A stretch of 18,163 nt of DNA from Desulfuromusa sp. (GTDB lineage: Bacteria; Desulfobacterota; Desulfuromonadia; Desulfuromonadales; Geopsychrobacteraceae). Location of the stretch: NCBI GenBank assembly GCA_029934095.1, contig JAOZMV010000007.1, positions 1 to 18,163 on the forward strand, written 5' to 3'. A program made the translations under genes and the position numbers. This document shows, piece by piece, positions 4,071 through 8,200 of the stretch (position 1 is its first letter; the number at the start of each line of letters is the position of its first letter). The notes beneath the pieces were generated by a model that was not told the origin of the DNA, did no database searches, and saw only the letters and a program-made list of their open reading frames with translations.

Positions 4071-4874
4071 CTACTTGAACGAATGTTCTGAAGTTGGAAA
4101 ATCGCCGTTTTTGACTTCTTTGATGTATTGCTCGATTCCCTCGGAAATTGTCGTGGAGATATCGGCATAGCGTTTGACAAATTTGGGTGAGTACTTATCG
4201 CAGAGACCGAGAATATCGTGAATGACCAGCACCTGACCATCACAATCAGAACCGGCACCGATTCCGATGGTTGGGATAGAAACAGATTCTGTCACCAATT
4301 TTGCCAGATCGCGTGGGATTCCCTCCAGCACCATGGCAAAGGCACCCGCCTCTTCAACGGCTTTAGCGTCAGCAAGAATCTTTCTGGCCTGTTCTTCCTC
4401 ACGCCCCTGCACCCGGAATCCCCCCATCCGGTGGATTGATTGGGGAGTGAGACCGATATGTCCGACAACCGGGATATCGATATCAACAATGGCACGAATC
4501 GTTGCAGCCATGTGTTCGCCACCCTCCAACTTAACCGCCTGCGCGCCACCCTCTTTAATCAAACGACCGGCATTCAGTCGCGCATCTCGTACATCGACCT
4601 GATAGGACATGAATGGCATATCGGTGACAATGAGTGCCTGTTGACTTCCCCGCACCACTGCTCTGGTATGGTAGAGCATCTCCTCCAGAGTCACCGGCAG
4701 AGTATTGTCATAGCCGGAAAAAACTGAACCAACCGAATCACCAACCAGAATAATATCAATGCCGACGTTATCCATGAGTTGAGCAAAAGGATAGTCGTAA
4801 GCAGTCAGAACAGTTATTTTTTCCTGTCCCTCTTTCATCAAACCGATATCAAGAATTGTCTTCCGCTGTTTCAC
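4071..4874 (-). CDS. panB: 3-methyl-2-oxobutanoate hydroxymethyltransferase (ketopantoate hydroxymethyltransferase)
   Basis: PanB transfers a hydroxymethyl group from 5,10-methylene-THF to 2-oxoisovalerate, giving ketopantoate, the first committed step to pantothenate and CoA. The 267-aa protein has the TIM-barrel motifs TAYDYP at 24-29, VGDSVG at 44-49 (metal ligand D46), TDMPF at 84-88 (metal ligand D85), KLEGG at 115-119 (metal-side E117) and the catalytic E184 in LEGIP. The start is GTG: a GAGG ribosome site (4882-4885) sits 7 nt before it and the protein opens MKQRKTILDIG, which suits the family. It is the first gene of the panB-panC-panP-amidohydrolase operon. It is preceded by a structured leader with a pan-like hairpin and a terminator-like hairpin, suggesting feedback control by transcript attenuation. 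Confidence 0.97.
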   Translation of the reverse strand: MKQRKTILDIGLMKEGQEKITVLTAYDYPFAQLMDNVGIDIILVGDSVGSVFSGYDNTLPVTLEEMLYHTRAVVRGSQQALIVTDMPFMSYQVDVRDARLNAGRLIKEGGAQAVKLEGGEHMAATIRAIVDIDIPVVGHIGLTPQSIHRMGGFRVQGREEEQARKILADAKAVEEAGAFAMVLEGIPRDLAKLVTESVSIPTIGIGAGSDCDGQVLVIHDILGLCDKYSPKFVKRYADISTTISEGIEQYIKEVKNGDFPTSEHSFK

Positions 4875-4923
4875 AGTTTTGCCTCGCTAGCAGTCTGTTG
4901 AGTGACCATAGAATGTTCGCCTG

Positions 4924-4959
4924 AAACAGAAAATGCCCATCGTCGCAACGAAAGGCACT
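4924..4959 (-). terminator. Terminator-like hairpin in the panB leader
   Basis: On the minus strand AGUGCCUUUCGU (4959-4948) pairs with ACGAUGGGCAUU (4943-4932) around the loop UGCG. There is one U-U mismatch and there are two G-U pairs. The stem runs into UUUU and then CUGUUU (4933-4924). It ends about 40 nt before the panB ribosome site. It could stop transcription before panB, or end a small leader RNA. Confidence 0.6.
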
Positions 4960-4996
4960 AACAGAGCAAAGTCGCTCTGCTTAAAAAAACAACCTT

Positions 4997-5022
4997 CCGT
5001 CCCGGTCTACAGATCCAGGCGG
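4997..5022 (-). ncRNA. pan RNA motif-like hairpin with two bulged adenosines
   Basis: The minus-strand RNA pairs CCG (5022-5020) with CGG (4999-4997), CCUGG (5019-5015) with CCGGG (5005-5001) and UC (5013-5012) with GA (5007-5006), closed by a UGUA loop. A5014 is bulged on the 5' side and A5000 on the 3' side. That gives ten pairs with one G-U. The published pan motif is a stem with two conserved bulged A residues, found in leaders of pantothenate operons in Firmicutes, Chloroflexi and deltaproteobacteria. Shape, bulges and location upstream of panB all agree. The match is from memory of the motif, not from a covariance search. Confidence 0.65.
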
Positions 5023-5101
5023 TATGTGTTCAATTCAGAATGACAACCTCACGACTCCAGTACCTGTCCCGGGTCAGCTATCATATTTTGAAATCGCACC
5101 G

Positions 5102-5130
5102 GATATAACACAGTTACTATTTTGTGTCCA
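5102..5130 (-). promoter_or_regulatory. Predicted sigma70 promoter of the pan operon
   Basis: Minus strand: TGGACA (-35, 5125-5130), a 17-bp spacer, and TATATC (-10, 5102-5107) preceded by TG in the extended -10 position. Transcription would start near 5095, which places all leader hairpins inside the transcript. Confidence 0.55.
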
Positions 5131-5180
5131 TCCCGAAACATTCACAAATTATGGTTCTCTTTTCAAGCTTAATTGACAAC

Positions 5181-5209
5181 AAAAAATGGGGCGGAAGTTA
5201 TCCGCCCCA
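5181..5209 (-). terminator. Rho-independent terminator of the glutamate dehydrogenase gene
   Basis: A perfect 9-bp stem, TGGGGCGGA (minus strand 5209-5201) against TCCGCCCCA (5195-5187), with loop TAACT, is followed by six T (5186-5181). It lies 21 nt past the stop codon of the glutamate dehydrogenase gene and just upstream of the pan operon promoter. Confidence 0.9.
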
Positions 5210-5230
5210 AATCGTTTAAAATACTGATAT

Positions 5231-8200
5231 TTATGCAGTCAACAGACTTTCCAGAGAGCGCAACAGTACCGTGAACGGATGAAAATTTCGCGGCACTTCA
5301 CTGAACAAAGCTTGCCGTAAGTTTTCAAAGGTTCTCATCTTTTGTCTTCTCTGAGAGAAATATCTCTTTGGCTTGTCTGCTGTTTCTAACGCCACCTGCT
5401 GCACAATTTTTATATTGACAGCATGGAGCGAATTAATCAGAGATTCCCGCGCACGGCGATCCCAGCTATCCAGCACTGCTACCTTCTCCAGCAACTCATA
5501 GATAGCTGCACTCTCTATTTTTTCTTCGACCAGAACTTTGATCTGCGCAAGTTGCTTCAGATTCTGCCCTGATGATTCAACCATACAGATCAAAGGCAAG
5601 AAGTCGTCCATATAATCGAGGACAGCATACCGGGAGGCAATCTCCGGGCTCAAGCCCTCATCCTGTAGCTGCAACTGTAATTGTTCACACTCTCGCCAGG
5701 AATTGGCCGGAAGAACTTGCGGTAAAAATCCTGCATACTGTTTTAGTTGATGGCTGATCCGCTCCAATTCCTGCTCAGAAGACGGAATAGCCATATTATT
5801 GACTAAAGCAGAAGAGCAGAAGAAACTCAGTAAATTTTCAAGCTTGAGTAACAGTTTATATTGCTGATCTGCAGAAATTTTATTATCCAGGGCAAAGACT
5901 GCCTGGCGAAGTTCATGCCCATCAAGAATATTATCAAAAATCAGATAAGTATTTGCAACATCAGCCTGAGGAGAACCGGTCATCCGACTGACGGTCTGCA
6001 GGAAAGCGCTCCCCGCCTGATCAATCACTCGATTGGTCAATATAGTTGCAGAAATTTCTTTGGCCAGGGGATGCCGTGTTAAGGAATCACGGTAGCGATC
6101 AATTGCCTGCTGCGGGAAATAATCGAACAGCAACTGCGAGACAACATTATTCGCCGGCAATTCAGAATCAAGCAGAGATTTAAACAGGAACATTTTGCTA
6201 TAAGCCAGCAGAACAGAGAGTTCCGGACGCAGCAAACGGTTCGGCTGTCGCGTAGAAACCTCTTTGCGACTGGGTAAAAATTCTCCACGTCGATCAAGCA
6301 ACCCAGATCGACCTAACCGATCCATTAATTCAAGATGGGGCTCTACATCTTCGCCACAACGGATTTCATCCAGAGAAAGGGAGAGGGTCTGGGTATAGTT
6401 GTTAGCAAGGACATCGAGACAGACAGTCTCCTCCATCTCGTCCAGAAAAGCATAACCCTCTTTAAGGTCTTTAACATGCCCTTCCTGACGCAACAGACGC
6501 AATAAAATTTTCAGGTTAACTTCGTGATCAGAACAGTCAACACCAGCGGAGTTATCAATGGCATCGCTATTAATATGACCACCATGCAGAGCAAATTCAG
6601 CCCGCCCAAGCTGGGTCAATCCAAGGTTTCCACCCTCACCAACAACTTTGGCACGCAGTTCCTTGCCGTCAATGCGAACCGCATCGTTAGCACGATCACC
6701 GACATCATCATTACTCTGCGTTGAAGATTTGACATAAGTACCGATACCACCATTCCAAAGCAGATCAACCTGAGCAGTCAACAGCAATTTGATCAAACCG
6801 GGAACATCAATACTCCCCTGACGAATCCCAAGCCATGCAGCGACCTGAGGAGATATGGGGATTTCTTTCAACTGACGGGAGAACACCCCACCACCCTCAG
6901 AAATCAACTCGGTATTGTAATCTTCCCAACTGGAACGGGGCAGCTCAAACATCCGCGCTCTCTCCTGATGGGAACTTTCCGGATCGGGATCTGGATCAAG
7001 GAAGATATGGCGGTGATCAAATGCCGCCAAAAGCCTGGTTTTCTTTGACAGCAACATACCATTTCCAAACACATCACCACTCATGTCACCAATACCAACA
7101 ACAGTGAAAGGTTCTGTTTGAATATCGTGCCCCAGTTCCCGGAATGACCGTTTAACACTTTCCCAGGCTCCACGGGCGGTAATCCCGAGCTCCTTATGAT
7201 CATAACCATGCGAACCGCCACTGGCAAAAGCATCACCTAACCAGAAGTCATAAGATTCACTGACAGCATTGGCAGTATCAGGCAAATGGGCCGTCCCTTT
7301 ATCGGCAGCGACAACCAGATAGGGGTCAAGGTCATCATAGGTAATAATTCCTTCAGGCTGGACAATTTCATCACCAACCCGGTTATCGGTCAGATCAAGC
7401 AAACCACGCATCAAAGTCTGATAAGCCTCGATAACAATTGCACCCATCCTGTCCCGATCAGGACTGCTCTGCTTGGTAATAAAACCACCTTTTGAGCCCT
7501 CAGGAACAATCACCGCATTCTTAGTCATCTGTGCCTTGACCAACCCGAGTATTTCGGTTCTGAAATCATCCGGTCGATCCGACCAGCGAATACCGCCACG
7601 GGCAACTTTGCCGCCACGCAGATGCAGACCTTCCATTTTTGCTGAATGAACGTAGACCTCATAAAGGGGTCGCGGAGCCGGCATATCGATAACACCAAGC
7701 GCGTTGATTTTAAAAGAGAAGAAATAATCGTCCTGCTGATATCGGAGAAAGAAATTGGTCCTGATGGTTGAGTCAATCAGGTTAAATAAAGAGCGTAAGA
7801 TTTTATCTTCGTTGGGATCACTGACGACCTCAAGAGCCGTGACCAGTTCCTGTCGAATTGGTGATAAAACTTCAAGCTCACGTGTCATTGGATCGGCTAA
7901 TTCAGTCGATGGTTTAAAGCGACCCTCAAAATAACGATAAAGGAGATGGGCAACCTTGGCGTTATTGATCAACGCATCAGCAACACTTTTCTTGGTAAAG
8001 GGGCAGCCTAATTGGAAATAATAACTGCGGTAGCCGCGAAACACGTCGATTTCACGCCAGGAGAGACCCGTCAGTGGCTGCAAACGATGCAAGTAATCAT
8101 TTTCCACATCACCATTCTTCATCGCCAGAAGAGTATCCAGCAACAGCTGCTTGATCTGCTTGAATGGCAGACTGTTAGCACCACCGGGCTTAATAGCAAA

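Follow-up and report, generated by a model that had tools for sequence, protein, structure and literature searches.

The leader of the pantothenate operon of a Desulfuromusa sp. contains a tandem pan RNA that very probably controls panB-panC-panP by transcription attenuation, with one strand exchanging between the second pan hairpin (P2) and the 5' arm of a downstream terminator, and with binding to P2 leading to termination. Comparison of leaders from relatives identifies P2, the downstream terminator, and the P2 3' strand plus its tail, as a complement of the terminator 5' arm, as conserved. From these parts, P2 is most likely an anti-antiterminator whose binding causes termination, and the binder of the leader RNA, whatever it is, can probably act as an off switch for the making of vitamin B5. 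The leader is an ordinary member of a known orphan family, and its output mechanism is well supported and testable. What is new relative to the description of the pan family is the expression platform, the exchange between antiterminator and terminator.

The panB leader and its operon

The window is the whole stretch of DNA analyzed, 18,163 nt of contig JAOZMV010000007.1 (assembly GCA_029934095.1) of a Desulfuromusa sp. in the order Desulfuromonadales, phylum Desulfobacterota. On its minus strand, positions 5130-4870 form the panB leader, comprising a predicted promoter, hairpins P1, P2, and P3, a terminator that runs into U-rich sequence, a probable ribosome site (GCGAGG, 4887-4882), and the panB GTG at 4874. 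The operon downstream, on the same strand, consists of panB (4874-4071, 267 aa, GTG start; TIGR00222, 360.6 bits), panC (4064-3195, 289 aa; TIGR00018, 331.6 bits), and panP, which encodes a pyridoxal-dependent aspartate 1-decarboxylase (3202-1574, 542 aa; TIGR03799, 890.7 bits). The panP gene occupies the place of panD in other operons, and no panD match was found in the window's genome assembly, which is 79% complete. PanP scored above its cut-off in 26 of 37 genomes searched. The upstream neighbor, a 1588-aa reading frame (9997-5231, minus strand), has no NCBIfam match at 0.001; from its size and sequence, it presumably resembles a large NAD-glutamate dehydrogenase. A terminator-like site at 5209-5187 closes this gene. 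It is the only site that a simple consensus scan of 4800-5300 reported; the scan misses the leader terminator because the U tract of the latter is interrupted in the window.

The predicted promoter (5130-5102, minus strand) has a -35 element TGGACA (5130-5125), a spacer of 17 nt, and a -10 element TATATC with an upstream TG (5107-5102). The predicted transcription start is at about 5095, in agreement with the leader start at 5095 given by the sequence-only reading that preceded this analysis. A sigma-70 consensus scan called no promoter in the leader. Of the order's 46 leaders, 36 have the pattern NNGAC(A)-N14-20-T(A/G)..TATA 5' of P2, against 1.2 expected after base shuffling, and 24 have TGTGNTATA, against 0.1 expected. 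Between the promoter and P1, several relatives (for example, L004, L016, and L020) have by eye a stretch resembling AACGCUUUUU, which is degenerate in the window and is retained in L223 and L225, both of which lack pan and the terminator. In L209, L215, L216, and L219, the pan hairpin appears by eye to follow, or to overlap the end of, an upstream coding region.

Structure and conservation of the pan hairpins

The Rfam pan model (RF01749) matches 5075-4993 on the minus strand (cmscan) with 36.1 bits (E 1e-4), over model positions 1-92 of 92. This is 0.1 bit below the gathering score of 36.2, and nothing is listed at that threshold. Among ten same-genus relatives with a pan match, four reach the gathering score (36.2 to 43.5) and six lie at 30.7 to 35.5. 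It is the sole RF01749 match at E ≤0.001 in the window's 1.78 Mb assembly (E 9.6e-5). The element is of the tandem form: P1 (5075-5053) has three pairs, a bulged A, and four pairs, and P2 (5022-4997) has ten pairs (3+5+2) with single bulged A5014 and A5000 on opposite strands. The sequence-only reading had described the second hairpin exactly so, with ten pairs and two opposing bulged adenosines at 4997-5022, and had called it pan-motif-like, which the match over the full model supports; the first hairpin of the tandem, at 5075-5053, was overlooked. A covariance-model match and compensatory changes in the stem, the joint lack of which that reading held would count against it, were both found.

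A fixed MAFFT alignment was made of 66 leaders, hand-chosen from 100 of the window's phylum. The bulged A5014 and A5000 (A9 and A23 of the first row of the alignment) are invariant in 66 of 66 sequences. P2 is paired in 99.4% of cells, with 0 of 500 shuffles as high, and four of its pairs have changes on both sides, a number reached in 4 of 500 shuffles. By these comparisons, P2 is conserved far beyond chance. Inspection by eye indicates that P1 in the window's order is without a clean second bulge. A rule-based search gave a P1 candidate in 156 of 216 leaders, some of them plainly wrong, and hence no count of tandem elements is given. A single-hairpin form of pan, with a promoter directly before P2, seemed likely by eye but was dropped, as a scan found it in 8 of 216 leaders vs. 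5.6 in shuffles and as Rfam matched several of the loci (L192, L199, L201, L208, and L214) over the entire tandem model. The idea that P2 and the adjoining U run form a terminator by themselves was also rejected, the U run not being conserved by eye.

Distribution among relatives

A pan match at E ≤1 is present in 46 of 60 genomes, the window's own included, and 15 of the 60 have a match above the curated score. The placement in a panB leader claimed by the sequence-only reading recurs in the order, where panB is next to pan in 45 of 46 loci; in the remaining one (L025), the contig ends within an apparent panB. All 46 loci were inspected, and matches as low as 27 bits are also in the expected place. 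At E ≤0.05, 137 of 194 genomes of the class and 50 of 198 of the phylum have a match, with some genomes in both sets. Pan has no match in 14 genomes; five of them have no PanB match either, and three of the five are 84-88% complete. Of the nine with PanB and no pan match, seven have by eye neither pan nor terminator. In L222, the contig starts inside the leader and the terminator is visible. In L220, P2 is decayed (no Rfam match at E ≤1), and the tail and terminator are still readable. Apparent loss of pan goes together with loss of the terminator or of PanB.

Additional leaders were obtained with a looser pattern, from which the letters of the window's own group were excluded; an initial pattern scan of genome contigs with the Rfam consensus letters had given no match. 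The looser scan yielded at least 119 stretches, and 75 of the 80 whose titles were listed are Bacillota by name. Among 219 loci, the downstream gene was identified as panB in 203 and as panC in six further loci; in L197, L199, L208, L212, L213, and L214 of the phylum set, pan lies directly before panC, not panB. Three loci without panB (L075, L079, and L085) were removed as chance matches, leaving 216, and five in which no terminator was detected (L080, L081, L118, L141, and L147) were excluded from later tests. Of the 211 leaders that remained, the window's phylum contributed 100 and the Bacillota scan 111; L053, a locus among those retained, bears the title Chryseobacterium. L081, from a record titled Nitrospirae bacterium, has a pan-like P2 upstream of a panB match. 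Bacillus subtilis, included as a control genome, carries pan above the cut-off.

An intrinsic terminator between P2 and panB

A hairpin scan places an intrinsic terminator at 4958-4933 (minus strand, -11.8 kcal/mol), directly followed by TTTCTGTTTC (U-rich stretch, 4932-4924). Folding predicts a further hairpin, P3 (4981-4960), between the switch strand described below and the terminator; by eye its sequence is not conserved in relatives. Both the second hairpin and the terminator-like hairpin of the sequence-only reading are thus present at these positions. The window's interrupted U tract has no run longer than 4; of the order's 46 leaders, 25 have a longest run of at least six, 10 of five, and 11 of four.

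Of the 216 leaders, 211 have a U tract preceded by a hairpin. As a control, 80 leaders were compared with shuffled versions of themselves: a hairpin at least as stable as -8 kcal/mol is present in 76 of the real and 9 of the shuffled sequences, and a hairpin of any stability in 80 and 43. On the fixed alignment, the four outer pairs of the terminator are 98.5% paired, with 0 of 500 shuffles as high; both-sided changes occur in one of the four pairs, no more than in shuffles (364/500). Read by eye, the leaders of relatives consist of pan, the tail, a variable part, and then a hairpin that starts mostly with GCCUUUCG or GCCUUCCG and has U at its end. In L060, L065, and L118 (Alkalihalobacillus/Pseudalkalibacillus), the terminator region is longer, with a partly conserved insert around GUGUUGCGG and CCCCUGUC; Rfam at gathering scores matched nothing besides pan in these three loci.

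Pairing of the switch strand with the terminator arm

The switch strand, ACGGAAGGU (5000-4992, minus strand), comprises the bulged A, the lower 3' strand of P2, and the conserved AAGG tail of RF01749. It can form nine pairs (-11.6 kcal/mol) with the terminator 5' arm, GCCUUUCGU (4956-4948), which by pairing and alignment would be the second strand of an antiterminator. Taken together, the window's P2 3' strand and tail, ACGGAAGG, are complementary to the start of the terminator hairpin. Bacillota have the same plan in other letters, CAGAGGGAU against AUCCUUCUG. P2, the predicted antiterminator, and the terminator are mutually exclusive. Exclusive structures that tie a sensor to expression, as found here, are a mark of riboswitches and are common also to protein-bound attenuators.

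Across the 211 leaders, the ten-nt switch strand pairs with the terminator 5' half at a mean of -10.7 kcal/mol, compared with -6.0 for shuffled strands, -6.0 for shuffled arms, -3.3 for the terminator 3' half, and -7.8 and -8.0 kcal/mol for switch strands borrowed from the other group. When the tested segment is slid along the leader, pairing is strongest for the switch strand itself (-10.7) and lies between -1.7 and -4.4 for segments that begin 12 to 60 nt further upstream. In 202 of 211 leaders, no part of the leader pairs better with the switch strand than the terminator 5' half does, and in 142 of 211 the strand is within the best 5% of its own shuffles. Pairing of -7 kcal/mol or better is reached in 202 of 211 leaders, and also in 31% of shuffled-arm trials. 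The nine weaker leaders include some in which the terminator call looks wrong (for example, L036, L065, and L096), and L026, L172, and L174, where the switch pairing is poor. An earlier version of this test, with the arm and without the loop, gave group means of -9.25 and -9.67 kcal/mol and placed the best site within the arm for 169 of 211 leaders. Since it missed partners that reach into the loop, the pairing was remeasured with arm and loop.

When switch strands were permuted among leaders, 0 of 1000 permutations paired as well for all leaders (166 distinct), and likewise 0 of 1000 for the window's phylum alone (85 distinct). Within Bacillota alone, where the strand hardly varies, 52 of 1000 did so, which is not significant. 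All of these tests are inflated by the relatedness of the sequences. The letters of the P2 5' strand vary along with those of the switch strand (CCG, CUG, UGG, and UCG). Most of the window's phylum has CGG in the switch strand with CCG in P2. Bacillota have CAG with CUG in P2 and GUC or -UC, in switch-strand order, as terminator partners, and L199 and L214 have CCAGAA with UGG in P2 and GGUCUU in the terminator. The tail, which is in no other helix, also changes with its partner, to CGGACGG with CCUGCC in L166 and L211 and to CGGCAGU with CCGUCA in L188; however, L186 has the CGGACGG strand without the matching G and is a counterexample to L166 and L211.

On the fixed alignment, the antiterminator is 93.3% paired vs. 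40-68% in slid versions, and 58 of 500 shuffles reach 93.3%. Both-sided changes are seen in two pairs, in one sequence each. Covariation of the antiterminator on this alignment is weak, and what the alignment offers in its support is the high pairing. The argument for the antiterminator lies in the cross-group and permutation results, which come from related sequences. When the two groups were aligned together with MAFFT (201 of 211 leaders), the alignment slipped between them (75.5% paired vs. 83.5% when slid by +1), and it is not used as evidence. Left out of it were L005, L036, L060, L065, L086, L096, and L101 for doubtful terminator calls, L133 and L140, in which P2 is at the locus end, and L153 by the author's choice.

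Leaders were also folded from P2 on, without P1. Before the terminator 3' arm is included, 158 of 209 leaders are predicted to form the antiterminator with a probability above 0.5, and the window with 0.97. At full length, the predicted structure is the terminator with P2 intact; the antiterminator then exceeds 0.5 in 9 of 209 and is 0.00 in the window. Attenuators usually follow this kinetic order, with an antiterminator first and a terminator at full length. The terminator-off alternative, which the sequence-only reading had proposed to look for by folding, exists by pairing and folding.

Proposed mechanism and alternative explanations

During transcription, the switch strand could be released from the lower stem of P2 to form the antiterminator with the terminator 5' arm, which would keep the operon on. 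If P2 is bound and held, the switch strand would be locked and the terminator would form, ending transcription about 50 nt before panB and turning the operon off. P1 may be a second binding site. Because the switch strand is part of P2, holding P2 favors termination, and product feedback is therefore the natural reading. What is sensed, directly or via an RNA-binding protein, would be an adequate supply of pantothenate, CoA, or an intermediate. In the window's genome and 20 relatives, pantothenate kinase is of the Baf family (type III, CoaX) in 21 of 21 and of the panK_bact family (CoaA) in 0 of 21. CoaX is not known to be feedback-inhibited by CoA. With CoaX insensitive, control of the pathway would have to act earlier, at the genes. 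The proposed antiterminator explains why the AAGG tail is conserved outside the hairpin; the antiterminator/terminator pair provides a concrete read-out, terminated vs. read-through RNA, and predicts the direction of the switch. The mechanism is testable in Bacillus subtilis, a pan carrier.

Two readings of what binds the leader share this attenuation mechanism and differ in the binder. P1 and P2 may be sites for a putative RNA-binding protein, probably a dimer, that when loaded with a pathway metabolite would hold P2 locked and bring about termination; the chances that this is correct are about evenly balanced. The hairpins are simple, short, and mostly in tandem, and the anti-antiterminator logic is that of PyrR leaders. 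On the other hand, pan spans Bacillota and the window's phylum, so that the protein would need to be shared between them, and we know of no candidate pan-binding protein. A dimeric protein was suggested by Weinberg et al. 2010 (PMC2864571), where the switch status of the motif is marked "?". The pan hairpins may instead bind pantothenate, phosphopantothenate, CoA, or a relative directly, with P2 then driving termination, as a true riboswitch; we regard this as possible and rather doubtful. The expression platform resembles that of many metabolite riboswitches, the P2 sequence is almost invariant, the downstream genes identified are panB or panC, and the kinase distribution implies that supply would need control at the gene level. 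However, at 26 nt the hairpin would be very small for an aptamer. The pan motif is listed in two transcriptome papers. In the open-access literature since its description in 2010, judged by title and start of abstract and among the matches listed, no pan ligand, protein, or terminator mechanism was found; text searches of PMC11487621 and PMC7266159 gave no match. As the search covered open-access papers, the terminator may have been noted before. According to a passage in Breaker 2022, CoA is among the cofactors for which no riboswitch is known. That pan is this missing riboswitch, for CoA or its precursor pantothenate, with direct binding by the tandem hairpins shutting off B5 synthesis in the window's phylum and Bacillota alike, is a tentative idea that we consider unlikely.

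The attenuation mechanism itself has been weighed against two other explanations. The terminator might merely limit expression, as a fixed attenuator, with a purine-rich tail and a pyrimidine-rich arm pairing by composition. The weak covariation of the antiterminator and the frequency with which shuffled arms reach -7 kcal/mol are in keeping with this, but shuffling strands or arms costs about 4.7 kcal/mol on average, all of 1000 permutations of strands among leaders give a weaker mean pairing, and the pairing is kept in both groups with different letters, which together make chance complementarity improbable. Control of translation, with P2 or a short frame governing initiation, is more improbable still. 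A 12-codon frame (4909-4871, minus strand) does overlap the panB GTG in the window, but among the 45 leaders scanned it is common only to L009 and is absent from the other 43, so it was rejected as a conserved element; an ATG frame of at least 8 codons stopping at the panB start occurs in 6 of the 45. P2, the switch strand, and the terminator are, moreover, all upstream of the ribosome site.

Comparison with known systems

The leader resembles the published pan motif (RF01749; Weinberg et al. 2010, PMC2864571) in its tandem hairpins, its conserved bulged A, and its position before panB, panC, and an aspartate decarboxylase gene. Passages of that paper on pan mention no terminator or antiterminator. 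The decarboxylase here is PanP rather than PanD, and the P1 of this order differs from the published form in the second bulge, which by eye is not clean. As in terminator-controlling metabolite riboswitches, for example those for purines, the 3' strand of the sensor stem would be shared with the antiterminator; the pan sensor, unlike those, is a small bulged hairpin and has no known ligand. A short bulged hairpin adjoining a terminator is also found in the LicT/SacY ribonucleic antiterminators, but there the bound hairpin is the antiterminator, whereas an anti-antiterminator is proposed for pan. In the PyrR binding-loop attenuators of pyr operons, the regulated hairpin is likewise an anti-antiterminator whose binding leads to termination. 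The binder there is a protein, and the pan site differs in overlapping the predicted antiterminator through its 3' strand and tail.
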